This document shows positions 1,976 to 47,783 of a stretch of 48,898 bases of DNA, piece by piece; within the stretch, counting starts at the first letter, position 1; every line of letters begins with the position of its first letter. This stretch comes from Actinomycetes bacterium. Lineage in GTDB: Bacteria; Actinomycetota; Acidimicrobiia; Acidimicrobiales; Bog-793. The stretch is taken from NCBI GenBank assembly GCA_021809805.1, contig JAJZKA010000006.1:1-48898 (forward strand), in the 5' to 3' direction. The notes under the pieces are model-generated. The model saw nothing but the letters and a program-made list of their open reading frames with translations. It searched no databases and had not been told where the DNA came from. The position numbers and the translations under genes are program-made.

Positions 1976-1976
1976 G

Positions 1977-3107
1977 TCACTGCTTCCTTTCTTTGGTTTC
2001 AAGGGTGTGCGACGGCAGTGGCCGCCGTGCTTTGGGGGGTCTTGATGCGCCCGGCGCTGGTCCGCTGCTCTCGCGCACGACCAGGCGCGGCGCGAGGAGC
2101 TGTCGTGCCGGGGCGCGTCCGCGTTCGGAGAGCTCGGCGAGCAAGACGTCAATCAGCTCGTGCGCAACCGACTCGATCGGTTGGCGCACGCTTGAGAGGC
2201 CCGGTCGCAGCACCGCGGCGATGGGGCTGTCGTCGAAGCCGACCACCGATACGTCGCGGCCGGCCGACAGGCCGCCGTCCTCGATCGCGCGCAGGGCCCC
2301 GATCGCCATGGAGTCGCTGACGCAGATGATGCCGGTCGGAGGGCGCGCGCTCTCGAGCAGGCGCCGCGTCAGGGTGCGCCCCGACTCGATGCCGTCCTCG
2401 GCGCGCTGTGCGAGCCCTTTCACTGGCAAGCTGAGCTGCTCCGCGGCACGTTCCCAGCCGCGGTAGCGGTCGTCGCCAACGCCGCTGCCGGCAGGCACGC
2501 CGAGGAAGGCGATCCGGTTGTGGCCCAACCTGGCGAGATGCTCCACCGCTTCGCTGGTCCCCTTGGCGCCATCGACGTCCACCCACGAATGCGCCGTGCG
2601 GCGGACCCCCCAGGCACGCCCGAAGGCGACAAAGCGCGCGGCGTGCTCGAGGAGCCAGCCTGGACGGGTGTCGAGGTGGTGAGTATTCGTCAAGACGAAG
2701 CCGTCGACCGCCCCGCGGCGAAGCAGATCGGTATAGACCTCGATCTCCTCGTCGTCGTCTCGCGCCGAGAAGGTGAGCACGTCGTAGCCGCTCGCCCGTG
2801 CGGCATCACACAGCGCATGCAGGAGACGGTCGAGCACACCACCTGAGTTGCTCGGGAGCAGACGGCAGCCGATCACGCGCGTCGAATGGCTGCGCAACGA
2901 CCGAGCTGCCTGGTTCGGGCGGTAGCCGAGCTCATCGATCGCGGCCCGGACGCGCTGGAGGGTCTCGGGGCGCAGGCGGTCGGGGGCGTTGAAGGCATTG
3001 GAGACCGTCTGGCGAGATACGGCGGCATGGCGCGCGACCATCTCGATGGTCGGCGGCTTGCCATCTGCGCCGGGCTGCGCGCGTGGCGCCGCAGGACGAT
3101 CAGGCAC
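1977..3107 (-). CDS. LacI/GalR-family transcriptional regulator
   Basis: I place the start at the GTG at 3107, preceded by GGGGGGAG at good spacing. The track's TTG start (3143) would fall in the operator. The product is about 376 aa. The N-terminal LacI HTH is PPTIEMVARHAAVSRQTVSNAFN (about residues 18-40), followed by the hinge-helix region YRPNQAARSLRS. A periplasmic-binding-protein-like effector domain follows, with motifs such as GFVLTNTHHLD, DVDGAKGT..AVEHLARLGHNRIAFLG and TGIICVSDSMAIGALRAI...VSVVGFDDSPIA. It is the first gene of a leftward operon with the sugar-binding protein and permease, and is divergent from the debranching-type glycosidase. The perfect inverted repeat in the shared intergenic region is its probable operator pair, so it should repress both arms until an inducer sugar binds. 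Confidence 0.9.
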   Translation of the reverse strand: MPDRPAAPRAQPGADGKPPTIEMVARHAAVSRQTVSNAFNAPDRLRPETLQRVRAAIDELGYRPNQAARSLRSHSTRVIGCRLLPSNSGGVLDRLLHALCDAARASGYDVLTFSARDDDEEIEVYTDLLRRGAVDGFVLTNTHHLDTRPGWLLEHAARFVAFGRAWGVRRTAHSWVDVDGAKGTSEAVEHLARLGHNRIAFLGVPAGSGVGDDRYRGWERAAEQLSLPVKGLAQRAEDGIESGRTLTRRLLESARPPTGIICVSDSMAIGALRAIEDGGLSAGRDVSVVGFDDSPIAAVLRPGLSSVRQPIESVAHELIDVLLAELSERGRAPARQLLAPRLVVRESSGPAPGASRPPKARRPLPSHTLETKERKQ

Positions 3108-3142
3108 GACTCTCCCCCCTCTCGATCCCCCCGGACCGCGCA

Positions 3143-3193
3143 AGTTGATCGTTCATACTGCCGAGGACCATCATTGCAGATGAACGATCAACT
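3143..3193. promoter_or_regulatory. Paired LacI operators in a divergent promoter
   Basis: AGTTGATCGTTCAT (3143-3156) and ATGAACGATCAACT (3180-3193) are a perfect 14-bp inverted repeat separated by 23 bp. Each arm contains TGATCGTTCA, itself a near-palindrome with the central CG typical of LacI-family operators, so this reads as two operators rather than one long one. Reading rightwards, TTGATC (3145) and CATCAT (3169) with 18-bp spacing could be -35/-10 elements, so repressor would sit on the promoter. The site lies between lacI (left) and the glycosidase (right). Confidence 0.8.
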
Positions 3194-3291
3194 CGCTAGC
3201 GTTCCGTGTCACAGATGGCGATCGGTATCCACGCATCGTCGCCGCAAGACACCGTGAAGCGGCTTTGTGCCAGCGATCCGAGGAGCCAAGC

Positions 3292-21075: not shown

Positions 21076-21423
21076 CTACAACGTGCGGGTGAAGCGGTGC
21101 ACCGCCTCAAGCAGCTCCTTGGTCTTCTCCGCTGCCACGGCGTCGTCCCCAGACGACAGTGCATGGCGTACGCAGTGATTGACGTGGTCGTCGAGGATCA
21201 TGCCAGCGACCGCCTCGAGGGCGGTCGAGATCGCGGCGATCTGGGTGAGGATATCGATGCAGTAGCGGTCCTCGGTGATCATTTTTTCGATGCCCCGGGC
21301 TTGGCCTTCGATGCGCCGCATGCGCTTGATGAGGGCGTCCTTCGCATCGACGTAGCCATAGGGCGGCCCTGCCCCGTGAGCGTTCGCTCCTGGATCACCG
21401 ACGGTTTTTCTTGCGCCGGTCAT
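21076..21423 (-). CDS. csoR: CsoR-family copper-sensing repressor
   Basis: The protein is 115 aa. The helical CsoR/RcnR core reads DALIKRMRRIEGQARGIEKMITEDRYCIDILTQIAAISTALEAVAGMILDDHVNHCVRHAL. Cu(I) ligands Cys55, His80 and Cys84 have exactly the spacing (25, 4) of the M. tuberculosis CsoR Cys-His-Cys site. It is the last gene of a leftward copZ-copA-csoR operon and overlaps copA by 4 nt. It should bind the palindromes at 23868-23884 and probably 25320-25334 when copper is low, and release them on Cu(I) binding. Confidence 0.95.
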   Translation of the reverse strand: MTGARKTVGDPGANAHGAGPPYGYVDAKDALIKRMRRIEGQARGIEKMITEDRYCIDILTQIAAISTALEAVAGMILDDHVNHCVRHALSSGDDAVAAEKTKELLEAVHRFTRTL

Positions 21424-23642
21424 CGGTGCACCTCGCTCGGAGAAAAGCGGCGCAGGCGGAGCGAGTTCGTGACGACGAACACGCTCGAGAAGGCCATCGC
21501 GGCGGCAGCGACGATCGGGTTGACCACCCCGGCGACCGCCAGGGGAATGGCGGCGACGTTGTAGCCGAAGGCCCAGAACAAGTTGCCCTTGATGGTCGAC
21601 AGGGTCCGGCGCGAGAGGCGGATGGCATCTGCTGCGGCACGCAGGTCACCGCTCACGAGGGTGATGTCGGAGGCCTCGATGGCGATGTCGGTCCCCGTCC
21701 CAATCGACAGGCCGAGATCGGCCTTGGCGAGCGCAGGCGCGTCGTTGACTCCGTCGCCGACCATCGCGACGACCTCACCAGCCGCCTGCAACCGGGCAAC
21801 TTCGGCCGCCTTGTCCTCCGGCAGCACTCCGGCGAGCACCCGCTCGATGCCCACCGCGGCGGCCACCGCTCGGGCGGTGGCTTCGTTGTCGCCCGTCAGC
21901 AGCACGGGGGTGAGACCGAGGGCGCGAAGCTCGGCGATGGCGGTCCGGCTTGTCGCCTTGATGCGGTCGGCCGCCGCGACGAGACCGGCCACTGAGCCGT
22001 CGGTGGCAACTGCGACCACCGTCGCGCCGGTGGCTTCGAGGCGGGCGACTTCGGCGGTGAGCTCGTCAGACAACGAGATTCCCCAGTCTGCCAGCAGGCT
22101 CGGGCGCCCGACCACGACGGCGCGTCCGTCCACGACCGCTTCGATGCCGAGGCCGGCGCGCGCCGAGAAGGACTCCACCTCGCAAAGAGTGCCGAGACGT
22201 TCGCGCCCATACGCTGCGATGGCGCGGGCGATGGGGTGCTCGCTCGCGTCCTCGGCCGCCGCAACTACGCGCACGAGCTCGTCCTCGGCCACCCCGGGAG
22301 CGGGCACGACGGCAGAAACGGCCATCTTGCCCTCTGTGATCGTGCCGGTCTTGTCGAGCACGATTGTCGTGATCTGGCGGGTCTGCTCCAAGACCTCGGC
22401 ACCCTTGATCACGATGCCGAGCTGCGCGCCTCGCCCGGTGCCGACCATGAGGGCGGTCGGGGTGGCGAGCCCGAGCGCGCACGGGCAGGCGATCACGACG
22501 ACGGCCACGGCGGCGGTGAAGGCAGCCGTCGTGGCGATGCCCCCGAGAAGGAGCCAGCCGAGAAGCGTGAGGGTCGCAACACCGATCACGATCGGCACGA
22601 AGAAGGCCGAGACGCGATCAGCGAGGCGCTGGACGGGGGCCTTCCCCGCCTGGGCTTCGGCGACCAGCCGGGCGATCTGGGAAAGTGCGGTCGTCGCGCC
22701 GACGTTGGTGGCCTCGACCACGAGCCGGCCCGAGCTGTTGATTGTCGCCCCGCTGAGTCGGTCGCCGGGACCGACCTCGACCGGGACCGACTCGCCCGTC
22801 AGCATCGACGCGTCGATTGCCGAGCTTCCCTTGATGACGATTCCGTCGGTCGCCACCTTCTCCCCCGGACGGACGACGAACTGCTCGCCGACTGCGAGCT
22901 CCTCGATTGGCACGAGGACCTCGGTGCCGTCCCGGAGCACGAGGGCCTCCTTTGCCCCGAGCTCCAGCAAGGAGCGGATCGCCTCGCCCGAACGCCGCTT
23001 GGCTCGCGCCTCGAGGTAGCGGCCGACCAAGATCAGCGCCGTGATGGCGCCGGCGGTGTCGAAGTAGACATTCGTTGAGATCCCGGCGAAAAGGACCACG
23101 GCCGACCAAGTCCAGGCCGACAGCGTGCCGATCGAGATCAAGGTGTCCATCGTCGCCACGCCGTGACGGGCATTGGTGGCGGCGGCCCGATGGAAGGGCC
23201 AGCCCGCGTACGCGACGACCGGGGTCGCGAGCACGAGCGACACCCACTCCCAGCCTGCCGGGCGCGCCGCGGCGACCCAGGCGAAGATCACGAGCGGGAT
23301 CGTCAGCGCGACGGCAAGCACGAGGCGGAAGCGGTAGGCACGGGTGGGGTCCTCGTCGCTCACCGTCTCGGGAAGCGCGGCGCCGTAGCCGGCGGCCTCC
23401 ACCGCGCCGATCAGATCCTCGATGTCGATCCGTGCCGGATCGAAGGCGACCGCGGCGTGCTCACTCGCGAAGTTCACGTTGGCAGCGACGCCGTCCAGCT
23501 TGTTCAGGCGCTTCTCGATGCGCGCCGCGCACGACGCGCAGGTCATGCCCGTGATCGCCAGTTCGACGCGCTGGCGCACCGGCGACTCCTTCGCCGAAGG
23601 AGCGTCTTTCGGCGCCGTAGGGGCGTCAGCGACGCCCGACAT
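21420..23642 (-). CDS. copA: Copper-exporting P1B-type ATPase
   Basis: About 740 aa. The start is ATG 23642, overlapping the copZ stop; GTG 23645 is the track start. An N-terminal HMA domain carries GMTCASCAARIEKRL (CxxC). Eight membrane helices include the transport motif CPCALGLATP in helix 6. Phosphorylation site DKTGTITEGK, nucleotide-binding SEHPIARAI (HP motif) and hinge GDGVNDAPALAKADLGLSIG are all intact. The ion-binding helices 7-8 show FWAFGYNVAAIPLAV (the YN motif) and MAFSSVFVVTNSLRL (MxxSS), which specify Cu(I). It pumps Cu(I) out of the cytoplasm, fed by CopZ encoded just upstream. All catalytic residues are visible and the length is normal, so it should be functional. Confidence 0.96.
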   Translation of the reverse strand: MSGVADAPTAPKDAPSAKESPVRQRVELAITGMTCASCAARIEKRLNKLDGVAANVNFASEHAAVAFDPARIDIEDLIGAVEAAGYGAALPETVSDEDPTRAYRFRLVLAVALTIPLVIFAWVAAARPAGWEWVSLVLATPVVAYAGWPFHRAAATNARHGVATMDTLISIGTLSAWTWSAVVLFAGISTNVYFDTAGAITALILVGRYLEARAKRRSGEAIRSLLELGAKEALVLRDGTEVLVPIEELAVGEQFVVRPGEKVATDGIVIKGSSAIDASMLTGESVPVEVGPGDRLSGATINSSGRLVVEATNVGATTALSQIARLVAEAQAGKAPVQRLADRVSAFFVPIVIGVATLTLLGWLLLGGIATTAAFTAAVAVVVIACPCALGLATPTALMVGTGRGAQLGIVIKGAEVLEQTRQITTIVLDKTGTITEGKMAVSAVVPAPGVAEDELVRVVAAAEDASEHPIARAIAAYGRERLGTLCEVESFSARAGLGIEAVVDGRAVVVGRPSLLADWGISLSDELTAEVARLEATGATVVAVATDGSVAGLVAAADRIKATSRTAIAELRALGLTPVLLTGDNEATARAVAAAVGIERVLAGVLPEDKAAEVARLQAAGEVVAMVGDGVNDAPALAKADLGLSIGTGTDIAIEASDITLVSGDLRAAADAIRLSRRTLSTIKGNLFWAFGYNVAAIPLAVAGVVNPIVAAAAMAFSSVFVVTNSLRLRRFSPSEVHR

Positions 23643-23845
23643 CACGACGCCTCGTAGCCGGCCTCTTCGATCGCCGCGCGCAGCCGCTGGTCGTCGAGGC
23701 CCTCACCCGTGACGGTCACGAGCTTGGTGTCGAGGTCCACCTCGACGGTCGCAACTCCGCCGACCGCGGAGATCTCGTTCGACACCGCATGCTTGCAGTG
23801 ATCACAGGTCATTCCCGCAACGGTGTAGGTCCTCGTCTCCGCCAT
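23642..23845 (-). CDS. copZ: CopZ-like copper chaperone (HMA domain)
   Basis: The protein is 67 aa. The start ATG at 23845 is preceded by GAGGAG; the track start at 24052 runs through the operator and is rejected. It is a single HMA fold: TYTVAGMTCDHCKHAVSNEISAV with the CxxC metal loop, then VEVDLDTKLVTVTGEGLDDQRLRAAIEEAGYEAS. It carries Cu(I) to CopA. The loop reads CDHC rather than the more usual CxGC/CxHC, which still fits copper. It is the promoter-proximal gene of copZ-copA-csoR, directly behind the CsoR box at 23868. Confidence 0.93.
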   Translation of the reverse strand: MAETRTYTVAGMTCDHCKHAVSNEISAVGGVATVEVDLDTKLVTVTGEGLDDQRLRAAIEEAGYEAS

Positions 23846-23867
23846 CTCGGTCTCCTCTCGAAGCCGC

Positions 23868-23884
23868 ATACCCCTATTGGGTAT
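23868..23884. promoter_or_regulatory. CsoR operator of the copZ-copA-csoR operon
   Basis: ATACCCCTATTGGGTAT is a palindrome (ATACCC-N5-GGGTAT) of the kind bound by CsoR in actinobacteria. It lies 23 bp upstream of the copZ ATG. A consensus TTGACA on the minus strand (23899-23904) is just upstream, so bound CsoR would cover the core promoter. Confidence 0.85.
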
Positions 23885-24015
23885 AAGTGTAGCCCAGATG
23901 TCAAGCCGTCGTCTGTGTGCTCCGGGATCGTCGCGCGGGACAACCTGGAGCTGGGGAGACGGCAAGATGACATGCGCGGGCCGTCGCGACGACCCGCGTC
24001 TCGTGCGGGGCACGC

Positions 24016-24888
24016 TCAGCTCGCGATCGGCGTGCCCGCGCCGCCCGTGCACTCACCGCCGTATTCGGGGGTGTACCGCGGACTCGTTCGGAATGTGTCG
24101 ACGAAGCGCTGCAGGCGGGGATCGTCCGGCGAGGTCACCTTGAGCTGGAAGCCCCACGAGGAGATCGCGATGTTCGACGACATTCCCGGAAATGGGGTGA
24201 GGTCGACGTAGCGCGATCCGGTGCCGGCGATGACGCGTTGTCGGTCCACGAAGGCACGCAGGGCAGCGACCTCGGCGTGAGCAAGGGAGGGCCGGTAGGT
24301 GATCCATACCGCGCCATGCTCGAGGTCGTGTACCGCCCGCTCGGCTGGGATCGGCTCCGCGTAGACGCCGCAGTTCGCCCACAACGCATTGTGGTCGCCT
24401 CCGACCGGTGGAGTCACCCAATAGCGGACCGGGCCGGCCACGTGGCGGTGGCCGAGTGCCCGGTCTGCCGGGCCGTTATGGCTTGTGGTCGGCCAGCCGG
24501 TCGTGTCGTAGGCGACGACGCCCTTGATGCCCGACCGATTGGCGACGACGAGCGCTGCGCTCTGGATATCGGCCTGCCCGGCTGCAACGGGGGGCGGCAG
24601 CACCTCGCGGTTCGCGTTCGCTGAGCTTGGTCCGCTCCCGAGGCTGAGGAAAAGCGACGTCCCGACGCCGACAACGATGACGACGATCCCAGCGGTTACG
24701 CGTCGGCGACGTCGAGCTTGTCTGGCCGTCCAGACACGCTGACGTGTCGAGGTATGCGTCTTGTTGGTCGGGCCGCCGGCCCGGCGTGGCGACGGTACCG
24801 GGTTGGCGGTACCACCGAGGCGCCGAGGGGAAGAGCTCCTTGATGTGGAGCTGCCGGTGCGCTTGGACGCACGCGGTTGCTTGGGCAT
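24016..24888 (-). CDS. DUF3105 membrane-anchored protein
   Basis: The start is ATG 24888 with GGGAGG just upstream; the track start is one codon earlier (GTG). The product is 290 aa. A basic, low-complexity N-terminus of about 65 residues (Arg/Ser/Thr-rich) is followed by one membrane segment (VTAGIVVIVVGVGTSLFLSL), so the C-terminal domain should be outside. That domain is DUF3105: ALGHRHVAGPVRYWVTPPVGGDHNALWANCGVYAEPI, then AVHDLEHGAVWITYRPSL and SSWGFQLKVTSPDDPRLQRFVDTFR. His and Cys residues in GGDHNALWANCG and HDLEHGA could bind metal; this is inference. The function of the family is unknown. It lies behind the copper operon promoter region, in the same orientation. Confidence 0.85.
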   Translation of the reverse strand: MPKQPRASKRTGSSTSRSSSPRRLGGTANPVPSPRRAGGPTNKTHTSTRQRVWTARQARRRRRVTAGIVVIVVGVGTSLFLSLGSGPSSANANREVLPPPVAAGQADIQSAALVVANRSGIKGVVAYDTTGWPTTSHNGPADRALGHRHVAGPVRYWVTPPVGGDHNALWANCGVYAEPIPAERAVHDLEHGAVWITYRPSLAHAEVAALRAFVDRQRVIAGTGSRYVDLTPFPGMSSNIAISSWGFQLKVTSPDDPRLQRFVDTFRTSPRYTPEYGGECTGGAGTPIAS

Positions 24889-30015: not shown

Positions 30016-30638
30016 CGACGCGGGGATCCCGACCGGGTACCGCCGTGCGGAGCGGTTCGCTTCTTCGGCGTGCACGTCGATGCGCCCCAATCCAGCCTCG
30101 CTGCATCGTTCCCCGCTCGCCTGCCTCGTGCACGCTTTGAGATCCGGGAACGGTCGGGCCGCCGGCGGCAGGGCAATCGCGCCGCTTCCCGTTGGAGGGG
30201 TAACGGTCCTGACGTCCTGGTGACCAGTCGGCGATCCGGCCTACGAAGGGCCAGACTCCCTTCGACACACGACGAGGTCCTCGTCGCTGCGACATCTTTC
30301 GAGCCGCCGCCGCGCTCGGCGCCAGCGTGCTCGCCGACACGGGATACTGCTCGTCGCGTTCTCGGCTCGGCGTTCGAGCCGGTTCGCTTCGCTGGCTTTG
30401 GGTGGTGCCCCGCTGCTTGCCTTGTCCACGCCTGGTAGCCGTGGGGCCCGTGAAAAGATATTGCTCGCAGCGCTTGTGAAACAACGGTGAGATAAGGGTG
30501 AGGGGTCAGTGATGACGCGCCTCTTTCCACTCTGCGAGGTGCCGACGCCTTATACTTCGCGCGCGCGAGCAGGTGACCGATCCGTCGACCGCCCGGTGGC
30601 GGAGCGGGGGGTCAGTCTTCAGGACAGAGGGGGGGACG
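30016..30638. other. Gap of about 620 bp with no supported gene
   Basis: Overlapping short frames on both strands are Arg/Ser/Pro-rich with no domain. TATACT at about 30550 could be a -10 for the secreted protein starting at 30639, but no good -35 matches it. It most likely holds the promoter and regulatory region of the secreted-protein cluster. Confidence 0.4.
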
Positions 30639-33017
30639 ATGACCGTTACGACCGCCCGTGAATGGAGACGAGGCCGGTGGCCTCCGTTCTTGCCCATGGC
30701 CGCCGCCCTCCTCACCGCCGGCTCGCTCGCCGCGGCGGGAAGCCCGTACCTTGCGGCGAGTGCGTCAGCGTTGCCGGCTTGGTCCTACACCGCGACGATC
30801 AGCTCATCGAGCGTGGCAGGGCTCCATGCCGGCGAGGTGGGCGACCTCATCCACCTCGACAACATCACGATGGAGGACATCGGTGCCGGCACCGTGGGCG
30901 AGGCCACCTTGCACGTGGTCGCCACACCCTCCCTGTACTCCTGCCTCGACGGGTCGACCGTGAACATCTTCGCCTTCCAGGGCGAGTACTTCCTCCACAA
31001 CGGCCTTGAGGGGCCGCAGTGTGTCTATGGGACGTGGGAGATCGCACCCTCCTCAATCACCTCGCCGGCCCAGGTGCCCGCGATCGCCGCGGCGAGCGAG
31101 GTCGGGGGACGGCTCGTCCTTGGGGGCCGGGGCTTTGGAGCCTCGCCGGGTGCCGTCGTCCTCGTCCACTACAGCTCCAACGTTTCGGGTCCCGTCTATG
31201 CCACGAACGTCCTCGCGTGGTCGTCGTTCCGCGCGAGCGTGGCCGTGCCCGCTGCGCTGCGCGCCGGTCCCTACGACGTGCTGCTCCTCACTGCCGCGGG
31301 CGCTGCCGCGACCACCATCGCCGTGCTGCGCCCGCCCCCGCCTCCTGGAGGACTGTGGGTGCAGGAGCCGTCGGGCACCACCGAGAGCCTGAACGCCGTC
31401 TCCTGCGTGCCGGGAAGGTCCCCGAACGGGGTGTCGACGGGCTACTGCTACGCCGTCGGCGACCACGGGACGATCGTCTTCTCCTCGAACGGGGGCCGCA
31501 CGTGGACGACCGAGGCCTCCCCGACCCCGGTCAACCTCAACGGGGTGGCCTGCGTCTCGGTCCCCTTGGCAGGCATGCGCGTGCCCGTGATCTGCTACGC
31601 CGTCGGCGACCAGGGCACGATCCTGTTCGAGAAGAACCAATTGCCCTGGATGGTCGAGTCACCCACGAGCCCTCCGACCACCGAACCGTTCTCCGCCGTC
31701 GCCTGCCAGTCGGCCAGCCGCTGCGATGCCGTCGGCACCGCCGTGGCGGCCGAGCTCACCTTCGCTAATCCGACCAGCCCGTGGCAGCTCGTCACGATCC
31801 TCGGTCCGTCCGGCTCGACGTGTGGCCCCGGCGGGCCCCAAAACGCCTGCCTGCGCGGCGTCGCGGTCGGCAACGCCGACGAGCACTTCGCTGTGGGCGG
31901 CGGCGGGAACATCTACGCCCAGTTCGACTACCGGGGTCCGTCGTGGACCAACCAGATCTCTCTCGGCGCCGGCTACTTCACGTCGATCTCCTGCGGTCCC
32001 CCGTCGATCGCCGGCCACAGTCACTGCATTTCCGTCGGGACCGATGACACCCTTGCCGCCAGCCGCATTTATGTGACCTTCGACAGCGGCACGACATGGA
32101 CGCCGGCGGCCTCCCCGCCCGAGGGGAGCCTGCCGCCGCTTCGGGGCGTGTCGGTTCTCCGTGGCGCCCGCGCCGACGGGCTTGCCTGGGCGGTCGGCGA
32201 CAGGGGCACGATCCTGCGCAGCGCCGACGGGGGCAGGACCTGGTCGAAGGAGACCTCGCCCACGAGCGCCGACCTGCTCGGCGTCAGCTGCCCCGCCACC
32301 TCGAACCCGCCACTTGTCTGTCTCGCCGTCGGGGCAGGAGGGACAATTCTCGCCCGCCGTCCGGGCGCTCCGTTGGCGACCTGGCCGTACACGGCGACCG
32401 TGACCGCCGCAAGCGTCCCCGCGCTCACCATCGGGCGGACCTACAACCTCATCCACCTCGTCAACCTCACCCTCGAGGACCTCGGCGCCGCTGAGGTGGG
32501 CCGGGCCACCTTGCACGTCAACGTGGCCGTCTCCCCCTACACCTGCCTGAAGGGCTCGACCGTCAACGTGTTCCGCTACGACGGGCAGTTCTTCCTCCAC
32601 AACGGTCTCGAGGGCTCCCAGTGCGTGTATGGGACCTGGGAGATCGCACCGGCCGCGATCACCTCGCCGGCACAGGTTCCCCTCCTCACGGCGGCGAGCG
32701 TCGCCTTCAGCCCGATCGTGCGACCGCCAGCGCCGTACGCAAGGCTGCTCGTCGCCGGGCGTCACCTCGGCCCCGCGCCCGGGAACGTCTCGCTCATCGG
32801 TTACAGCGCCACGACCTCAGGGCCGGTCGTGGCCACGCGCGCCATGTCGTGGGCGACGACGCGCGTCGTGGCGGGCCTCCTGGGCCACGTCACCCTCGGC
32901 CATCTCTATGACGTGCTCCTGATCTCGAACTCCGGCGCTGCCGCCTCGAGGTTGGTGAGGGTGCCCAGGATCGTCCCGCTCGCGCTGTCGCCGGTCTCGC
33001 TCCCCACGACGAGCTGA
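30639..33017 (+). CDS. Secreted propeller protein with a duplicated flanking module
   Basis: The start is ATG 30639 behind a GGGGGGG tract. The product is 792 aa. The N-terminal signal peptide ends near SASALP. Residues ~48-153 and ~582-687 are two copies of one module: WSYTATISSSSVAGLHAGEV / WPYTATVTAASVPALTIGRT, and FFLHNGLEGSQCVYGTWEIAP, with SPAQVP in both. Between them lies a YCF48/BNR-like beta-propeller with repeats of the kind AVGDHGTIVFSSNGGRTWTT, AVGDRGTILRSADGGRTWSK and AVGAGGTIL. Each module is followed by an IPT/TIG-like stretch (GRLVLGGRGFGASPGAVVLV / ARLLVAGRHLGPAPGNVSLI). It is exported, and surface or matrix function is likely. The ligand and role are unknown. It is followed 12 nt later by another secreted protein. 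Confidence 0.85.
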   Translation: MTVTTAREWRRGRWPPFLPMAAALLTAGSLAAAGSPYLAASASALPAWSYTATISSSSVAGLHAGEVGDLIHLDNITMEDIGAGTVGEATLHVVATPSLYSCLDGSTVNIFAFQGEYFLHNGLEGPQCVYGTWEIAPSSITSPAQVPAIAAASEVGGRLVLGGRGFGASPGAVVLVHYSSNVSGPVYATNVLAWSSFRASVAVPAALRAGPYDVLLLTAAGAAATTIAVLRPPPPPGGLWVQEPSGTTESLNAVSCVPGRSPNGVSTGYCYAVGDHGTIVFSSNGGRTWTTEASPTPVNLNGVACVSVPLAGMRVPVICYAVGDQGTILFEKNQLPWMVESPTSPPTTEPFSAVACQSASRCDAVGTAVAAELTFANPTSPWQLVTILGPSGSTCGPGGPQNACLRGVAVGNADEHFAVGGGGNIYAQFDYRGPSWTNQISLGAGYFTSISCGPPSIAGHSHCISVGTDDTLAASRIYVTFDSGTTWTPAASPPEGSLPPLRGVSVLRGARADGLAWAVGDRGTILRSADGGRTWSKETSPTSADLLGVSCPATSNPPLVCLAVGAGGTILARRPGAPLATWPYTATVTAASVPALTIGRTYNLIHLVNLTLEDLGAAEVGRATLHVNVAVSPYTCLKGSTVNVFRYDGQFFLHNGLEGSQCVYGTWEIAPAAITSPAQVPLLTAASVAFSPIVRPPAPYARLLVAGRHLGPAPGNVSLIGYSATTSGPVVATRAMSWATTRVVAGLLGHVTLGHLYDVLLISNSGAAASRLVRVPRIVPLALSPVSLPTTS

Positions 33018-33029
33018 TCGGCTCCCGAC

Positions 33030-35396
33030 ATGCCGAACCTTCGAATGGGGCGCTTACCGCGCCAGGCACGTGTCCGTGCGGCCGCGGCCGCGGCCGTTGC
33101 GGCTTGCGCCCTCGCCCTCGCCCTCGCGGGTCCGGCCGCTGTCGCTGCCCCGAGCCCGGCTCCCGCCACAAGGGGCGCGCCCTCGCTCGTGCCGGCCGGG
33201 AGCGGCCTCATCGCCTTCCGGGACGCCGCGGGGATCGGGGTGCTCGACCCGGTGACGGGGCGACAGCGCCTCCTGCTCGCCGTGCCGAGCGCCTGCACGG
33301 TGAGCCCTGTGCTCGGGGGCGTACCCGCCATCGAGCTGGCCGGCCCCGTGTGGGCGCCGTCGAGCGGTGCGGGCGCGCGCCTTTTCTTCTGGCTCACCGA
33401 CTGGCAGTACCACCCCACTCCGGGCTGCGTCCTTCCCCTCCCGCCGAGCTCTGTGCGCGTCGGCGGCCCGATCCTCGTGGAGATGGACCCCTTCACCGGC
33501 ACGCTCACCGCCGCCGCGGCTGCACCCACGGGGCTTCCCTGTCAGCCCGGCACCGACCTCGCCGCAGTGCCCGGAGCGCTCGGCTTCACCGACGGGGGGT
33601 GTGACGAGCCCACGATCGAGGCCCTCGCACTGCCGCTCCGCCCGGGCACCCAGCCGGTGGCTGCCGTGCTGCCGCCGCAGGCCTCGGCGCCCTGTCGCTG
33701 CCAGAGCGTCGACGCCCTCCTCGGACCCGGCCCAGCAGGCAGGCTCCTCTACAAACAGGTGCACCTCGGGTTGTCGAGCGCGCCACCGCCGTCGCTTGGA
33801 TGGTGGAACCCGGCCGGGCGGACTGCCGGGCTCCTCACACCTTCGCCACCGCGGGCGTTGTGGGGTCGCCTTGTGGAGTCTGCCGCCTCGCCGAACGGCC
33901 GCCTCGAAGCATTCGCCGCCGGTGAGGGTGGTGCCGGTGTGCTCGACCCGGCCACTGGGGCGTGGTCCCCGATGCCGCTCCCGGCCTGCGGGCGACCCTG
34001 CGCCGGCGCAGTCGCCGTATCGTTCTCACCGAACAGCAGCCACCTCGCCGTGGCCTCCAGTGGGGACCTCGTCGTCGACCCGGCGACAGGCAAGGGCTCC
34101 CCCGAGGTGCATCTCGGCGGCGCGAAGGTCGCCGACGTGAGCTGGTCGGGGCCAGTTGGTGCCCCGCTCGCCCCGGCACCCCCGGTGGCGCTCGCCCGGG
34201 CGCTCGGGTCCCTCTTCGCGTCCTTCGCCAGGCTGTGGGGATCGGGGCTCACGGCGACGTGGCGGGTGGAGCCGGCGGCGATGGCCGCCCCTGCCGTGTC
34301 GATCGTGTCCCTCCCTGGTCCGGCGAGCGCCCTCGTCATGGTCTCCGACGACATCGCCCTTGCCGCCGGAGGCGGCCGGACGTGGCGCAGCGCCGACGGC
34401 GGCCGGACGTGGACGACGGTGACCACCCACTGCGCCCAGCTCCAGATGGTTGGCCCAGGCTTCCCGCCGTGTGACGTCGCGCAGATGGCCGCCTTGCCCG
34501 GGGGAGTGGTGCTGGCCGCGGGTGGACCGGCCCTCGGACCGGCCGGCGGGTCGATGGGCCTGTGGCGCTCGACCGACACCGGGCTGCAATGGAAGCGCCA
34601 ACCGTTCCAGGGGCGCGTCGTTGAGGGAGGACCCTGGGTGGCAGGATCTGCCGCCTACTTGCTCGCCATTGCCGCACAGCCGAACGGCCGACCCGTCCCT
34701 ACCGCCGCCAGCCTTTCCTTGCTTGCCTCCAGCGACGCGGGCCGGACCTGGCACAAGATCCTCGTCGTCCCCCGGCGCGACCCCTCGAGCGGGGCGATGT
34801 TCCTCGATCGATTCTTCGTCCTCGGTCCGGGGCGCTTCGCCGAGCTGTACCGGGTCGGAGACTGCTCGCTGCCCGCTGATCTGCGGGTGAGCACTGACGA
34901 CGGGCGGACGTGGCTCCGCCAGCCGCCACCCGTCCCCCTCGAGCCCGTCGCCCTCGCCGAGGCGACCCCTGGGCGCCTCGTGCTCGGGAGCCGTTTTTGC
35001 AGCGCGGCAGCTCCCTCCTACGGCGAGGGCATCTTCACCCACCCCGCTCGCGCTCCCAGATCCTGGGACCCGGCCCGGCTACCCCCTCCGTACCTCGACC
35101 GCTACGGGCTCGGGGCGACCGGCCGCTTCCCTGCCTCGTCCGCGAGCGTCGAGCCGCTCTCGATCGCGGCGCTCGCCTTCCCGAGCGCAAGTGAGGGCGT
35201 CGCCGTCGGCTCCGCCGTGACAACGATCACGAACCGCCGCGGCGACCCGCAGGCCGATCCCACGGTGGCGGCGAGCGAGAGCCTCGTCCTCGTGAGCCAC
35301 GACGGCGGGACCACCTGGTCGGACGAGTCGGTGCCAGGCGGCGGACTCAAGCTGCTCGCCTGCGCGGGCCCGGGGCACTGTCTAGCGGCGGGCTAA
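33030..35396 (+). CDS. Secreted BNR/propeller-repeat protein
   Basis: The protein is 788 aa. The start ATG at 33030 is 12 nt after the previous stop, so the two form an operon. The signal peptide is unmistakable (VRAAAAAAVAACALALALAGPAAVAAP). The N-terminal half (to about residue 390) resembles WD/TolB-like blades (GLIAFRDAAGIGVLDPVTGRQRLLLAVPS). The C-terminal half contains BNR/YCF48 repeats: GGRTWRSADGGRTWTTVT, MGLWRSTDTGLQWKRQPF, SSDAGRTWHKILVV, STDDGRTWLRQPP and VSHDGGTTWSDES. Numerous cysteines are paired across blades and suit an oxidising environment. The function is unknown. There is no catalytic sialidase Asp-box set or RIP motif that would make it a glycosidase. Confidence 0.8.
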   Translation: MPNLRMGRLPRQARVRAAAAAAVAACALALALAGPAAVAAPSPAPATRGAPSLVPAGSGLIAFRDAAGIGVLDPVTGRQRLLLAVPSACTVSPVLGGVPAIELAGPVWAPSSGAGARLFFWLTDWQYHPTPGCVLPLPPSSVRVGGPILVEMDPFTGTLTAAAAAPTGLPCQPGTDLAAVPGALGFTDGGCDEPTIEALALPLRPGTQPVAAVLPPQASAPCRCQSVDALLGPGPAGRLLYKQVHLGLSSAPPPSLGWWNPAGRTAGLLTPSPPRALWGRLVESAASPNGRLEAFAAGEGGAGVLDPATGAWSPMPLPACGRPCAGAVAVSFSPNSSHLAVASSGDLVVDPATGKGSPEVHLGGAKVADVSWSGPVGAPLAPAPPVALARALGSLFASFARLWGSGLTATWRVEPAAMAAPAVSIVSLPGPASALVMVSDDIALAAGGGRTWRSADGGRTWTTVTTHCAQLQMVGPGFPPCDVAQMAALPGGVVLAAGGPALGPAGGSMGLWRSTDTGLQWKRQPFQGRVVEGGPWVAGSAAYLLAIAAQPNGRPVPTAASLSLLASSDAGRTWHKILVVPRRDPSSGAMFLDRFFVLGPGRFAELYRVGDCSLPADLRVSTDDGRTWLRQPPPVPLEPVALAEATPGRLVLGSRFCSAAAPSYGEGIFTHPARAPRSWDPARLPPPYLDRYGLGATGRFPASSASVEPLSIAALAFPSASEGVAVGSAVTTITNRRGDPQADPTVAASESLVLVSHDGGTTWSDESVPGGGLKLLACAGPGHCLAAG

Positions 35397-35453: not shown

Positions 35454-37286
35454 CTACGGCGTCGCGACGACGGGCGGGCAGGCGGGCTCGGTGACTTGGA
35501 CCTTGGTGGCAGCGCTTCCCGGCGGAGCCGCAGCCAGACATGGTCCGAGGCTGACGGTGCTCGTCAAGGCGCCGCCAGGTGAGAGCCGGTAGAGGGCGCG
35601 AGCTCGATACGGCGTGGCACAAGCGTTGCAGGCGTCATTGAGGGGGAGCTGGACCCATAGCTCCTCGGCGCCGCCCGCAAGCGTCCGGGCCGCTTCGAGG
35701 TCGGGGGGAGAGAGGACGAAGAGCGGCTCGACACCCGGGCGGTAGCCATCGGCCAGGCGGTAGGCGCGCTGCAGGGGCCCATAGGCGGGGGTCGTGAGCG
35801 ACGGCGCCGGCGGACGGTGATAGGGGGGCTGGCCGTTCAGAAGGATCCAGCCCATGCAGCCACAGTCCATCGGGAACGCAGAGAGGGTGTAGCCGACGTC
35901 GACCTTTCCGGTGTCGAGGAAGCGGACGAGGTAGCTGTGGGTGGCTCCGAAGAAGGCGACGGCGGCGGCGGAAGCGCCGTGAGCGGCCATGTAACGGGCC
36001 ACGCAGGCCTGGAGCGCGGTACTCGAGGTCATTGCCGGGAGGCACACCGCAGAGACGCCCACCTGACCCCCTTTCGTCGCGTCCCGCCAGATGGCGCTCG
36101 GGCCGACTCGCCCGCCGACGGGCGGCGCAGGCACCGTGCCGATCGGGACCACCGACCAGGTGAGGCCGCCGTTGCGGGTCATGAGGAGCCGGTCGCGCCA
36201 CGGGTGCTCGGTAGGGCGCCCATCGACGACGAACCCGACCGAAGGGCTGACGAAGGAGAGCCCCGACAGCCCTACGCCCCCGTCGTTGAGGGTGGTGCGC
36301 GTCCAGTGCCGCCCAGCGTCACCAGAGCGGTCGAGGAATCCCGCAGCAGAGCTGGCTGCGAGCACGAGCAGCGAAGGGCTCGGGGCCGCGAACCCGTCGA
36401 CGAGCCCTCCGGACGGGGCGGCACCGATGGGGTGGGCGGAGGTTCCGGCGTCGGTGGATTCGAGGACCTGCTTGGCCTCCTGGCCGGCACCGGGGTTTCC
36501 TGCACACAGCTCGAAAAGGATCGAGCCCCCAGGAGAGGCCAGCTCGGCGAGGTCGATCGCCCAGCTCGGCCGGTAGCACGGGTCGGGGATCCGGCTCCAA
36601 GATGCGCCCGCATCGGTTGTTCGCCAGATCGTCACCGACGCAGGGAGACGTCGCGGCCACATCACCACCCAGCCGGTCTCTCCTCGGAAGACGAGCCGGG
36701 CTTGGTCGAAGCCGCTGACGCCGGGCACCACCCGCCAGGCGTCCGTGCCGGCCGGTGCGTGCTCGAGGTGCAGCGAGGGCGTCAGGCAGCCGGGGTTCTG
36801 CGGCCAGCAGCTGGCAACGACTGCCCAGAGGGTGCCGGCATCCACGCTGAGGTCGAGAACCGCTCCCCCCGGGTGCAATGCCACCCATCGGCCCGGGCTG
36901 GCGGTGGTGGCCCACAGCCCGGGCCCGTACGCGTAGCCGCTCGCGCCGGTGAACAGGATCGCGCCGACGGCGTTGGCCGGGACGGTGCCAACCCCCATGG
37001 AAGGGCTGGCGATCGAAGCGGGCGGAACCGGCGCACTCGTCCAGCTGCGTCCGCCATCGGAGGTGGTGGCAAGGGTGGTGCAGCTTGCCTTTCCACAAGG
37101 CGTGGCGCCGAGCACGAAGCCCTTGGTGGCCGATGTGAAGCTCGCCGAAAGCGGTCCGAAACGCGCCGAGACGGCGCGCCCGGGCCAAGCACGAGGCGCC
37201 GAACTCTTCATGACCATGGCAGGAAGGCCGAGGAGGAGCAGGACGGCAGCCAAGATTGGGCCTCTGGCGCCCAAGCGCCCGGTCAC
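35454..37286 (-). CDS. Secreted YCF48-like propeller protein
   Basis: The start is GTG 37286 with GGGGAG upstream. The product is 610 aa. The signal peptide is GPILAAVLLLLGLPAMVM. Blades typical of the YCF48/BNR family follow (TLATTSDGGRSWTSAPV, TIWRTTDAGASWSRIPD, FLDRSGDAGRHWTRTTL, LLMTRNGGLTWSVVPIG). A C-terminal ~200-residue part is rich in Cys pairs (PMDCGCMGWILLNG; LNDACNACATPYRARALYRL) and does not look like blades. It converges with the plus-strand secreted pair (57 bp between stops). It is probably transcribed with, and downstream of, the secreted 228-aa protein at 37372-38058. Confidence 0.8.
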   Translation of the reverse strand: MTGRLGARGPILAAVLLLLGLPAMVMKSSAPRAWPGRAVSARFGPLSASFTSATKGFVLGATPCGKASCTTLATTSDGGRSWTSAPVPPASIASPSMGVGTVPANAVGAILFTGASGYAYGPGLWATTASPGRWVALHPGGAVLDLSVDAGTLWAVVASCWPQNPGCLTPSLHLEHAPAGTDAWRVVPGVSGFDQARLVFRGETGWVVMWPRRLPASVTIWRTTDAGASWSRIPDPCYRPSWAIDLAELASPGGSILFELCAGNPGAGQEAKQVLESTDAGTSAHPIGAAPSGGLVDGFAAPSPSLLVLAASSAAGFLDRSGDAGRHWTRTTLNDGGVGLSGLSFVSPSVGFVVDGRPTEHPWRDRLLMTRNGGLTWSVVPIGTVPAPPVGGRVGPSAIWRDATKGGQVGVSAVCLPAMTSSTALQACVARYMAAHGASAAAVAFFGATHSYLVRFLDTGKVDVGYTLSAFPMDCGCMGWILLNGQPPYHRPPAPSLTTPAYGPLQRAYRLADGYRPGVEPLFVLSPPDLEAARTLAGGAEELWVQLPLNDACNACATPYRARALYRLSPGGALTSTVSLGPCLAAAPPGSAATKVQVTEPACPPVVATP

Positions 37287-38058: not shown

Positions 38059-38401
38059 GTCGCTGCCCCCTTGCACCAATGCGGCATCGACTCGTCTCAT
38101 GCTACTTGTTCGCGATCGGGAGATCTACACGGTGAAGGACCTCGTTGCCACGTACCCCCGCCGAACTTGGCGGCCGCTCCCAGGGACTGCGCCTTCGAGG
38201 CTCGGGAGAAGTCGGCGGGGTCCGCGGTGAACTTGGTGGCGGACCGTGCAAATCGGGGCACCCTCGCGGCACGGTCATAGACCAACAGTTCCCGGGCCTC
38301 GACGTCGTATCGTGATGAACAGCCGCGGGCTGCCAACCGACAACCCTCGGTGTGCCGGCTCCTGTGGATTTCGACAGCATCGCTGCGAAAGGTGGACGGG
38401 A
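38059..38401. other. Divergent intergenic region
   Basis: It separates the 228-aa secreted protein (left) from the next secreted protein (right). A minus-strand frame here (FARSATKFTADPADFSRASKAQS...) has protein-like composition, but there is no start signal or family, so I treat it as non-coding or decayed. Promoters for both arms must lie here. Confidence 0.4.
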
Positions 38402-39910
38402 ATGCGTAACACGAAGTTGCAGAGATGGGTGATGCCCGCCGCCCTCAATCTGGTCGCCACGGCCGTTGTCCTCGTCGCGGGGAGCAGGCCTGCGTTCGCC
38501 AGCACGCCACCCCAATCTGTTGCCCCTCCGACTGTCGGCGACATCCTCATCGCTCCGCTCAGCTCGACCTCGGTCATGGTGGACGCGGCGCTCGATCCGA
38601 ACGGCCTGGATACCACCTACGTCGTCAACTTCGGCACCACTGCTGCGTATGGCTTGACGACGTCGCCGCAGAACGCGGGATCAGGAACGGCGATGCTCGG
38701 TGTGGCGGTGCGCCTTTCTGGACTGCTGCCCGAGACGACCTACCACGTCGACCTCCTGGCGACGAACGCGGCAGGTACCTCTTCGAGCGGTGACCGGACC
38801 TTTGTCACGCATGCATTAGCTACACCAACCGTGTCCACCGTACCGAGTCCAGGCTCGTTGCCGCCGGTGGGTCGGCCGGCGAACTCGCCGTCGGGGAAGG
38901 TCGTCCGCGTTCTTGTCATGAATCCCGCCAAGTCGTTCGATGGGCTGTCCGGCGTGTCGTGTGCGTCGACGACGTTCTGCCTCGCGGCCGGATTCCAAGG
39001 GCGACCTGGTGGCCTGGTGAGGCCGCTCGTCGAGCGCTGGACAGGACAGTCGTTTGCGACATTCCCGTCACCGACGTCGCCCGGTGCATCGTTGTACGCC
39101 ATCTCCTGCCCAAGCAGTGCAGAGTGTCTAGCGGTCGGGCGCGATGGGCATAGCACCTACTCAGCCCGCTGGACCGGGCACAGCTGGCTCGTTGAGCCGA
39201 CGCCGAGCCCTGTGACAGCGAACGGCGACATCTTGCGGTCGGTGAGCTGTGTATCAGCAGTCGACTGCTGGGCCGCGGGTTATACAGACGGCGCAACGAC
39301 GAACATGGCCATTCTGCTCGAGCACTGGAACGGACATAGCTGGTCGATCGTTGGTGCCCCCAGTCCGCACGCGACGGTTGTGAATAGCATCAGCTGTTCG
39401 TCAGCGGCGAACTGCTGGGTCGTCGGCGCGTATGACGCGTTTCCCGGTGTGGGCAACTTGCTCGCCGAACACTGGAACGGCAACAGATGGACGATCGTCC
39501 CGACGTCGGGCCCATCTGGATCCGCGGGTGAATTCGCTGCCGTCTCTTGCCAGGCAGTGTTCACGTGCTGGATGAGCGGATCAGGAACGAGAGCGAACTT
39601 CATGCTGCACTTGGTGCACGGGTCATGGAGATTGATCCAAAATCGTCTTCTCGGAGAGGTCGGCGCCGACGCCGTTACGTGTAGCTCAGCGCAAAGCTGC
39701 TGGACCGTCGGCCTCGGGTTCATGGTCGGCCACTGGAACGGAAAAGCGTGGAGTGCGGCGACGCAGCCGATGTTCGTCGGAGGGGGCTTCACCAGTGTCG
39801 TCTGCCCCACAGCGACGGAGTGTCTGGCCGTTGGCATATGGCAGAACAATCGGTTGAAGAATCCGATTGCCTCGCAGCGGGCAGTCGCATACGTGGCGCG
39901 CTCCACGTAG
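38402..39910 (+). CDS. Secreted protein with FN3-like domain and Cys-rich propeller repeats
   Basis: The start is ATG 38402; the track's 38246 start is untenable. The product is 502 aa. The signal peptide is ALNLVATAVVLVAGSRPAFA. Residues ~45-140 form a fibronectin-III-like domain (TYVVNFGTTAAYGLTTSPQ...VRLSGLLPETTYHVDLLATNAAGTSSS). From ~175 onward there are seven repeats of the form VSCxSxxxCxAxG...W.G.SW: VSCASTTFCLAAG, ISCPSSAECLAVG, VSCVSAVDCWAAG, ISCSSAANCWVVG, VSCQAVFTCWMSG, VTCSSAQSCWTVG and VVCPTATECLAVG. These disulfide-stapled blades are abundant in Acidimicrobiia and related actinobacteria. It is surface-exposed or released. The function is unknown. Confidence 0.85.
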   Translation: MRNTKLQRWVMPAALNLVATAVVLVAGSRPAFASTPPQSVAPPTVGDILIAPLSSTSVMVDAALDPNGLDTTYVVNFGTTAAYGLTTSPQNAGSGTAMLGVAVRLSGLLPETTYHVDLLATNAAGTSSSGDRTFVTHALATPTVSTVPSPGSLPPVGRPANSPSGKVVRVLVMNPAKSFDGLSGVSCASTTFCLAAGFQGRPGGLVRPLVERWTGQSFATFPSPTSPGASLYAISCPSSAECLAVGRDGHSTYSARWTGHSWLVEPTPSPVTANGDILRSVSCVSAVDCWAAGYTDGATTNMAILLEHWNGHSWSIVGAPSPHATVVNSISCSSAANCWVVGAYDAFPGVGNLLAEHWNGNRWTIVPTSGPSGSAGEFAAVSCQAVFTCWMSGSGTRANFMLHLVHGSWRLIQNRLLGEVGADAVTCSSAQSCWTVGLGFMVGHWNGKAWSAATQPMFVGGGFTSVVCPTATECLAVGIWQNNRLKNPIASQRAVAYVARST

Positions 39911-42421: not shown

Positions 42422-42808
42422 TCATGCGCGAATGACGGATACGTCCGCTGCGTGGGCTGCGAGCGCCCGGAGGTCACCGATGTCGCCGGTGAGAACCGAC
42501 CCACTCGGCTCGGCAATGGCGACGATGAGCGCATCGACGGCCGATCCTCGCTGCGCGGCGGCGCGCAGTATGCCGGCTCGGCGAGCGAGGTGCTCGGGGA
42601 CCTCGTCGACGACGTCGCAGGTTTTCAAGAACCTGTTCGTAACGGCGTCGTGCTGCGGGCGGCCGCTGAGGCACTCGACGAGGACCACGGTCGACACCAC
42701 GGGCGGCCAGATGCCTTGGCGAACGAAGACGGTGATCAGCGCAGCGGCATCCTGGCTCCGTCGGGCGAGGCGAGATACGCCTCCGGAGTCCAGCACCAGT
42801 CGCGTCAC
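42422..42808 (-). CDS. vapC: VapC-like PIN-domain toxin
   Basis: The protein is 128 aa. Acidic PIN residues are in place: D7 in RLVLDSGG, E45 in VVLVECLSG, D92 in SAVDALIVA, and D109/D112 in TGDIGDL. VapC toxins are Mg-dependent RNases, often cleaving tRNA or the sarcin-ricin loop. It overlaps the antitoxin gene by 4 nt (ATGA), so it is the second gene of a leftward pair. The length and motif set are normal, so it should be active unless neutralised by its partner. Confidence 0.9.
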   Translation of the reverse strand: MTRLVLDSGGVSRLARRSQDAAALITVFVRQGIWPPVVSTVVLVECLSGRPQHDAVTNRFLKTCDVVDEVPEHLARRAGILRAAAQRGSAVDALIVAIAEPSGSVLTGDIGDLRALAAHAADVSVIRA

Positions 42809-43056
42809 GACGCCCGGCTTGCGTCCCCGGGGCGTCTGACCTGGTCTGCGACGGCCTCGGCCCTGGCCACTGCCGCGTCGTCAGGCGGTCCGACCTCGGC
42901 GACGAGCTCATCGACGTAGCGTGCCGTCTCCTCGAGCAGCGTCTGACGTCGAAGCTCGGCCTGCACGGCCCTGCGCAGCAGGTCCGAGGCCGGCAGACCT
43001 CGGTCCTTGACGGCGCGGTAGAGGTCGTCTGGAAGGTAGACCTGCATCCGGGGCAT
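42805..43056 (-). CDS. vapB: RHH-type antitoxin (VapB-like)
   Basis: The protein is 83 aa. The N-terminal ribbon-helix-helix MPRMQVYLPDDLYRAVKDRGLPASDLLRRAVQAELRRQ is followed by an acidic, helical tail (TARYVDELVAEVGPPDDAAVARAE) that would wrap the toxin. There is no Shine-Dalgarno before the ATG, and operator-like repeats directly abut it, so the mRNA may be leaderless. It should repress its own operon alone or with VapC. Confidence 0.85.
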   Translation of the reverse strand: MPRMQVYLPDDLYRAVKDRGLPASDLLRRAVQAELRRQTLLEETARYVDELVAEVGPPDDAAVARAEAVADQVRRPGDASRAS

Positions 43057-44718: not shown

Positions 44719-44937
44719 ATGGCTACCGACCGTGGTTCGTCCGTTCGGACTCGTGTGCAGGCGCATCGGGCGCGGCTTCGCGCGGAGGGGTTGCGCCCAG
44801 TCCAAATCTGGGTGCCCGATGTGCGAGCGCCCCAGTTCGTCGCGGAGGCTCACCGGCAGAGTGCGCTGGTTGCGTCCTCGCCGATGGCGCAGGACGACCA
44901 AGACTTCATCGACGCGCTCTCGGCTGACGAGGAGTGA
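44719..44937 (+). CDS. mazE: MazE-family antitoxin
   Basis: The protein is 72 aa. RVQAHRARLRAEGLRPVQIWVPDVRAPQFVAEAHRQSALVA is the conserved core of the short actinobacterial MazE family. An acidic tail (SPMAQDDQDFIDALSADEE) follows, which should occupy the toxin's RNA-binding groove. It overlaps mazF by 4 nt (GTGA). GAGG sits too close to the ATG to be an ideal ribosome-binding site, so translation may be leaderless. Confidence 0.9.
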   Translation: MATDRGSSVRTRVQAHRARLRAEGLRPVQIWVPDVRAPQFVAEAHRQSALVASSPMAQDDQDFIDALSADEE

Positions 44938-45263
44938 GGCGCGGCGAGGTCTGGACCGCGGCTGCGGGGTCTGGCTACGCCGGCAAGCCTCGGCCGGTCG
45001 TCATCGTCCAGGATGACCGGTTCGACGCGACTGACTCGGTCACAGTCTGCGGGTTCACGACCGACCCCACCGAAGCGCCGCTCTTCCGGCTCCTCGTGGA
45101 AGTGAGTGAGCAGAACGGGCTTAACGAGCCGAGCAGTCTCATGATCGACAAGTTGACGACGGTCCGGCGAGCGAAACTTGGCGAGCGAATCGGCCGCCTC
45201 GCTGATGAAGACATGGTCCGTCTCGATCGAGCCGTCGTCGTCTTCCTCGGACTTGCTGGCTGA
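44934..45263 (+). CDS. mazF: MazF/PemK-family endoribonuclease toxin
   Basis: The protein is 109 aa from GTG 44934. The PemK/MazF fold signatures are RRGEVWTAA at the N-terminus, GKPRPVVIVQDDRFD (with the catalytic-loop Arg), VTVCGFTTDPTEAPLFRLLVE (catalytic Thr/Ser region), and MIDKLTTVRRAKLGERIGRLADEDMVRLDRAVVVFLGL. MazF cleaves mRNA or rRNA at short motifs. It is an intact pair with MazE. Its 3' end from 45196, including non-coding sequence after the stop, is found again at 46385-46469. Confidence 0.92.
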   Translation: MRRGEVWTAAAGSGYAGKPRPVVIVQDDRFDATDSVTVCGFTTDPTEAPLFRLLVEVSEQNGLNEPSSLMIDKLTTVRRAKLGERIGRLADEDMVRLDRAVVVFLGLAG

Positions 45264-46469: not shown

Positions 46470-46631
46470 TCACCTCAAGTTGCGACTTCCTATTTCACCT
46501 TCATTGACCGCTACTTACTGTTTCCTGTTCCGCCATTTACAAGGCCTTTCTCGCCTGTCATAACTGGCTCTCGTGCTCCCAATGATTGACACCGCTGCAT
46601 CGCCGATGCGTGGAGGTGCGACAGCGCCGTG

Positions 46632-47783
46632 ATGAGTCTCACGACGATGTCGCCCTCTGCCTGGCGCTACTACGTCGAGGAGATCGCGCGCGGTCGCGAG
46701 GACTACTTCGCGAAAGGTGCCGAGCGTTCGGGCCAGTTCTCTGGTCGCGGCGCGGAAGCGCTCGGGATTGCGGGGCACGTGGCCAACGCGGTGACGCTGG
46801 AACGACTCTTCGGACACGGCACCGATCCCCGCGACGGTTCCGCGCTCGGGCGCGGCTTCGATCCCGACAACGAGCGCGCCGTCGCTGGGTTCGCCCTCAC
46901 GTTCTCGCCGCCGAAGAGCGTCTCGGTGCTGTGGGCACTCGCCGACAAATCGGCCTCCGCCGAGGTACTCGCCGCGCACGAGGCAGCGGTCCGCGCGTCG
47001 ATGGGATTCGTCGAAGATCACGCCGCGTTTACCCGACGAGGGCACAACGGTGTACTCCAGGTCGACACTGAAGGACTCCTCGCAGCGAGCTTTCTTCACC
47101 GGACCTCGCGCGCCGCTGACCCGCAGCTCCACACGCACGTCTTCGTCGCCAACAAGGTCCGCGCGGAGGACGGTGCCTGGCTTGCGCTCGACGGACGTGA
47201 GCTGTTCGCCACCCAGAAGGCGACCGGGATGCTCTACAAGGCGGCGCTTCGCACGGAGCTGACCGAACGTCTCGGCTTGTCCTGGTCTGCGGTCGATGAC
47301 GACGGCGCAGCGGAGATCGAGGGTGTACCGCCGCTCCTGCTCGATTACTGGTCCGCGCGTCGTCACGAGCTGAAGGCCCTCGGCGACGAGCTGATCGCGA
47401 ACCGCTCCGCCAAGGTTGGCCGATCGCTCTCGCCGAACGAACGGGCCGAGTGCTTCCAGATCGCCGCCTACCGGACGCGGACCGCGAAGGTCGACGCGGA
47501 CACCCCGACCGAGGAGCTGCGCGGACATTGGCGCGCGGAGGCCGAGGCATGGGGACTCGCGCCCGAGACCTGGACCGCGGACCCTGGAAGGACCCTTAAG
47601 ACGCCGCGCTCGCGACTGCGATTTCTTGGGCGCGATCCGGGCGCGATCGGGCGCGTAATCCCAGGTCGTAAGGAAGACCACCGGTCAGTGACGGTCAAAT
47701 CAAGAAATCGCTTTGACCAGGGAAAACAGAAGATAATTGAGAGAGAGCACCGAGCACAACTCCTCTACCCAGGGAGAATGTGA
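46632..47783 (+). CDS. MobF-type conjugative relaxase, truncated (N-terminal nickase domain only)
   Basis: The start is ATG 46632; the track uses the GTG just before it. The product is about 383 aa, where MobF/TrwC relaxases are usually 900 or more. The TrwC nickase domain is complete in motifs: the N-terminal Tyr pair (AWRYYVEEIARGREDYFAKG), LTFSPPKSVSVLWALAD, and the three-His metal site (FLHRTSRAADPQLHTHVFVANKV). After about residue 310 the family similarity fades (WTADPGRTLKTPRSRL). The C-terminal end is lower in GC and unlike the rest (KSRNRFDQGKQKIIEREHRA). The TraI-type helicase half is missing. Relaxases nick oriT of an ICE or conjugative plasmid, so this is strong evidence of a former conjugative element. 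Confidence 0.85.
   Translation: MSLTTMSPSAWRYYVEEIARGREDYFAKGAERSGQFSGRGAEALGIAGHVANAVTLERLFGHGTDPRDGSALGRGFDPDNERAVAGFALTFSPPKSVSVLWALADKSASAEVLAAHEAAVRASMGFVEDHAAFTRRGHNGVLQVDTEGLLAASFLHRTSRAADPQLHTHVFVANKVRAEDGAWLALDGRELFATQKATGMLYKAALRTELTERLGLSWSAVDDDGAAEIEGVPPLLLDYWSARRHELKALGDELIANRSAKVGRSLSPNERAECFQIAAYRTRTAKVDADTPTEELRGHWRAEAEAWGLAPETWTADPGRTLKTPRSRLRFLGRDPGAIGRVIPGRKEDHRSVTVKSRNRFDQGKQKIIEREHRAQLLYPGRM

Follow-up and report, generated by a model that had tools for sequence, protein, structure and literature searches.

The gene at 30639-33017 of the window (the whole 48,898-nucleotide stretch of Actinomycetes DNA that was analyzed) encodes a protein in which a seven-bladed propeller is bracketed by two copies of a module. 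The module belongs to a real domain family, with about 40 known copies, that has no name in any of the libraries searched. We tentatively propose, with somewhat less than even confidence, that this is a secreted binding protein that uses its two arms to hold a polymer, probably a glycan. Its features, those of its neighbors, and the architectures of its relatives (designated by locus) are collected in Table 1.

TABLE 1 Features of the two-module propeller gene, its neighbors, and the architectures in which the module is found
Feature	Position or locus	Strand	Basis or remarks
Secreted two-module propeller protein	30639-33017	+	792 aa from ATG; same architecture in orthologues L022, L024
Signal peptide, likely	30639-30770	+	Inspection: basic N terminus, hydrophobic core, ASA preceding module 1
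Module 1, first copy of unnamed domain	30771-31079	+	Arm alignment; beta structure plus a single short helix in AlphaFold2 model (pLDDT 79)
IPT/TIG-like domain 1	31077-31331	+	Arm alignment, profile comparison
Seven-bladed BNR/Ycf48-like propeller	31350-32372	+	Blade repeats by inspection; PSII_BNR below cut-off; Foldseek to 2xbg
Module 2, second copy of unnamed domain	32373-32681	+	Arm alignment, tree
IPT/TIG-like domain 2	32679-32963	+	Arm alignment, profile comparison
Second secreted BNR-type protein	33030-35396	+	Starts 12 nt past the module-protein stop; location of family next to module proteins is conserved at other loci
Third secreted BNR-type protein	35454-37286	-	Family adjoins module/Cu-amine-oxidase-N proteins in L015, L016 (65-67% identity)
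Two-armed propeller	Window, L022, L024
One arm and propeller	L018
ECF sigma, zf-HC2, membrane helix, Pro-rich linker, module, IPT, propeller	L017 3686-6571		One ORF
Module, IPT, Cu_amine_oxidN1, He_PIG	L015, L016, L020
Tandem modules	L031, L034, L038, L039, L076
Three modules	L035		Micrarchaeal
Small single-module proteins, little else	L036, L073		Frames of 158 and 127 aa, respectively
GH18, Thr/Pro-rich linker, C-terminal module	L077		GH18 E 6.4e-25; one case
Big domains (Big_1/Invasin_D3), PA14, Cu_amine_oxidN1 with module	L074, L075
Module, Ig-like, propeller-like repeats, Cu_amine_oxidN1	L033		Bacillota

The open reading frame can also be read from a GTG at 30573 to 33017 on the forward strand, giving 814 residues. 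The ATG at 30639, which is closely preceded by the purine-rich GAGGGGGG, is most likely the start, and residues 48-153 and 582-687 counted from it correspond to 70-175 and 604-709 of the longer frame, in agreement with the alignment. The protein is predicted to be exported, with a signal peptide followed by module 1, IPT-like domain 1, the propeller, module 2, and IPT-like domain 2. Every domain is under purifying selection (dN/dS 0.26-0.50 in comparison with L024), and a search for paralogues found no second copy in the genome of the window.

The similarity between residues ~48-153 and ~582-687, which had been noticed in a first-pass annotation, is real: the two modules are identical at 64 of 100 residues, with a score of 354 compared with 27±5 (maximum 51) for 500 shuffles, and the DNA is indeed still alike (76% identity, ungapped, over 255 nt; 30844-31098 versus 32446-32700). 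That annotation described a duplicated module of ~106 residues; the module does repeat, but the full repeated unit is an arm of ~185 residues, since the IPT-like stretches are likewise duplicated (29/70 identical, score 137; shuffles 33±7) and the complete arms are identical at 97 of 183 residues (score 482; shuffles 41±7, maximum 67). In the tree, module 1 clusters with the first module of the orthologues L022-L024 (support 95/92), and module 2 clusters with the second (support 98/88), in a group that includes the module of the sigma factor fusion. Because each module clusters with its counterparts in L022 and L024, the two-armed form is inherited and the duplication is old.

An IPT-like stretch had also been proposed to follow each module. 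At the level of profiles this has support, as a profile of 13 such copies matches the corresponding domain of cyclodextrin glycosyltransferase (E 2e-4) and the IPT/TIG protein 8co1 (E 0.004), but single copies fall below the Pfam threshold for TIG, 2 of 13 reaching a match (best E 0.013). Between the arms, inspection indicates seven blade repeats that close the ring there, and Foldseek matches the propeller to Ycf48 (2xbg; E 2.7e-11, TM 0.71 by target length), so that the bracketing of a propeller by two modules is borne out. The match spans a stretch of ~350 residues and many module proteins have no propeller, which places the module outside it; the alternative that the module is part of the propeller is ruled out by the seven closed blades, the extent of the Ycf48 match, and the propeller-free relatives. 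The protein resembles Ycf48/HCF136 and the BNR/sortilin-type propellers in its seven blades and Asp-box-like repeats, 2xbg being the best fold match. Unlike Ycf48/HCF136, however, it lies below the family sequence cut-offs (24.5 versus 326 for NCBIfam Ycf48; 26.3 bits versus 27 for Pfam PSII_BNR, the BNR match also being weak), is apparently secreted, and has flanking module-IPT arms.

The module itself has no family match in curated Pfam, NCBIfam, or PHROGs, nothing below E 1.6 among PDB sequences, and nothing at E≤0.001 when its model is compared with solved and viral structures, so that the earlier view that no named domain covers it stands. Matches to CrcB (3e-4, one member) and dermaseptin (0.019) were rejected as single-member chance matches. 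The AlphaFold2 model, built from 31 sequences, is all-beta with one short helix and is of moderate quality (pLDDT 79, pTM 0.71), which makes a new fold possible at most; in a full-length AlphaFold2 model the module regions are too poor for the modules to be placed.

Members of the family are about 75-110 residues long and share the signature motifs N-x-[ST]-x-E and H-N-G-x-x-G-x-Q-C-x-Y-G-T-W. In an alignment of 39 modules, Asn31 and Thr88 are invariant and Glu35, Gly43, His76, Gly78, Gly81, and Tyr86 are nearly so; from sequence conservation, Asn31 and Thr88 together with Glu35, His76, Gly78, Gly81, and Tyr86 have the appearance of a core that serves binding or structure. Cys58 and Cys84 behave as a pair: all 39 modules have either both or neither, and each cysteine changes five times on the tree. 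This joint retention and loss makes a disulfide probable, but with three strongly supported independent pairs the covariation falls short of statistical significance.

The module was found in 6 of 35 genomes of the window's family, in 3 of 296 genomes of its class and 2 of 397 sampled genomes of its phylum (its own included in both counts), and at 19 loci in a scan of 84,980 species genomes, which covered loci carrying the peptide pattern HNG-x-x-G. The hosts are Actinomycetes MAGs, one MAG each from Bacillota, Proteobacteria, and the micrarchaea, the isolate Desulfurella acetivorans A63, and a second Campylobacterota genome. Most are acid mine drainage MAGs: the site codes DBS, TL, and MAS in MAG names are mining areas of an acid mine drainage sediment study (PMC12153355), and the remaining site codes probably derive from the same study. 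Contigs may have been misbinned among MAGs from a single study; the Desulfurella genome, however, is complete. A phage or plasmid origin of the module was considered and rejected, as no relatives were found in viral contigs or in plasmids, the latter being a weak test because the query was a hand-made, consensus-like sequence.

Single-module proteins, for which the first-pass annotation had suggested a search, do exist (Table 1), and the partner domains are varied, the GH18, PA14, and sigma fusions being represented by one instance apiece. In the proteins of two loci in low-GC MAGs, L037 and L040, which Pfam does not name, a single module precedes a low-complexity tail rich in Pro, Trp, and Tyr. 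The families of the two BNR-type neighbors in the window adjoin module/Cu-amine-oxidase-N proteins in L015, L016, and L020 with 48-67% identity, which argues for a joint function. A further secreted repeat protein (38246-39910) matches fn3 weakly and contains SC..C-AVG repeats resembling the blades. At 21076-24052, inspection by eye indicates a small CsoR-like ORF and two HMA-containing products, one a P-type metal ATPase and the other a separate HMA protein, all typical of metal-rich habitats. A VapBC-like pair (42422-43056, by eye), a PemK/MazF-like toxin (44934-45263, E 2.2e-20), and a TrwC relaxase (46629-47783, E 3.6e-80) suggest an integrated mobile element at the right end of the window.

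The company kept by the module favors a two-armed binding protein, as a binding role fits all of its contexts: an appendage of a hydrolase, the outside of a sigma switch, tandem repeats, and stand-alone proteins. Tandem and triple modules are also what avidity would lead one to expect. A putative glycan ligand is favored by the GH18, PA14, and PASTA partners and by the ECF52 sigma factor SCO4117, which has a carbohydrate-binding domain as its extracellular part (PMC8999054). The module is like the carbohydrate-binding modules of glycoside hydrolases in its Thr/Pro-linked placement on GH18, in occurring in tandem copies, and in being combined with IPT domains, as also happens in cyclodextrin glycosyltransferase. 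It differs from catalogued CBM families in having no detectable similarity to them in sequence (Pfam, PDB sequences) or fold search, and carbohydrate binding by the module is putative.

In the mechanism that we propose, a protein exported to the cell surface or extracellular matrix would present a Ycf48-like propeller carrying two near-identical arms, each composed of a disulfide-stapled beta module and an IPT/TIG spacer. Both modules would bind the same polymer of repeating units, for which an envelope or biofilm-matrix glycan is the likeliest candidate, the two arms providing avidity or cross-linking and the propeller offering a second binding face. In the GH18 relative the module would target the hydrolase, and in the ECF sigma relatives it would act as the outside sensor.

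The sigma relatives also lend themselves to a different and rather unlikely interpretation, that the module mediates protein-protein contacts or signal input in the sensing of envelope stress, detecting a protein or the state of the envelope and relaying it to ECF sigma factors, with the window protein as a soluble partner of such a sensor. The fusion in L017 (Sigma70_r2 9.5e-17, Sigma70_r4_2 2.9e-14, zf-HC2 6.2e-9, membrane helix by inspection) speaks for this interpretation. The fusion is like ECF52 (SCO4117) in having an ECF sigma factor, the zinc-finger anti-sigma domain zf-HC2, a membrane helix, a Pro-rich linker, and an extracellular binding part (PMC8999054), but differs in that the extracellular part consists of the unnamed module, IPT, and propeller. 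The tandem-module gene of L076 is followed, on its own strand, by an ECF sigma gene that has a membrane helix and a PASTA match just under the cut-off, and the same genome has an ORF with a membrane helix, a long Pro-rich stretch, and a module (L032:3-680, truncated by the end of the contig), which may be another membrane-anchored sensor like that of L017. Ycf48-type propellers, moreover, bind peptides (PDB titles). Against signal input, the window has no sigma gene near 30639-33017, the protein has no sigma domain by sequence inspection or Pfam, most module proteins have no sigma link, and the GH18 and PA14 partners better suit a glycan. As regards the surroundings of the L017 fusion, directly upstream (1673-3514) is a module-IPT-propeller relative that has lost the module core (CL...HNG...YGTW missing), the module of the fusion itself being intact, and downstream is a Cu-amine-oxidase-N/He_PIG protein without a module, a counterpart of which was not found in the window's own genome in a search without a control.

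Less probable still is that the module serves in acid stability or anchoring, for example in an S-layer or matrix, with no specific soluble ligand, and that the propeller does the binding. The predominance of acid mine drainage MAGs among the relatives, the disulfide-like cysteine pair, and the association with Ig-like and Cu_amine_oxidN1 surface domains are in keeping with such a role; the proteins L036 and L073, which have little beyond one module, are not, nor is the position of the GH18-linked module as a terminal appendage past a linker, and the near-invariant polar residues Asn31, Glu35, and His76 suggest a site. A role of the module as a small enzyme, or as a metal-binding domain, that acts on the matrix polymer is improbable, for although Asn31, Glu35, His76, and Tyr86 are near-invariant, the domain is small, occurs in up to three tandem copies, and matches no catalytic family, and the GH18-linked copy has Gly, Asp, and Thr in place of Glu35, His76, and Tyr86, keeping only Asn31 of the four.

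The two-armed binding protein remains our preferred, though tentative, interpretation. The module family has a clear anatomy that has been missed by curated libraries. More speculatively, and with rather low confidence, the module may represent a novel polymer-binding fold, spread among bacteria and micrarchaea that share acid habitats and used there as a common surface grip: by itself, in duplicate on a propeller, attached to a chitinase-like enzyme, and as the outside part of membrane-bound ECF sigma switches. The sigma fusions open the question of the ligand to transcription-based testing, and because the module occurs in several bacterial phyla and in a micrarchaeal bin, for the most part from acid mine drainage, it may provide a direct route to a surface or matrix ligand that is shared in those biofilms.
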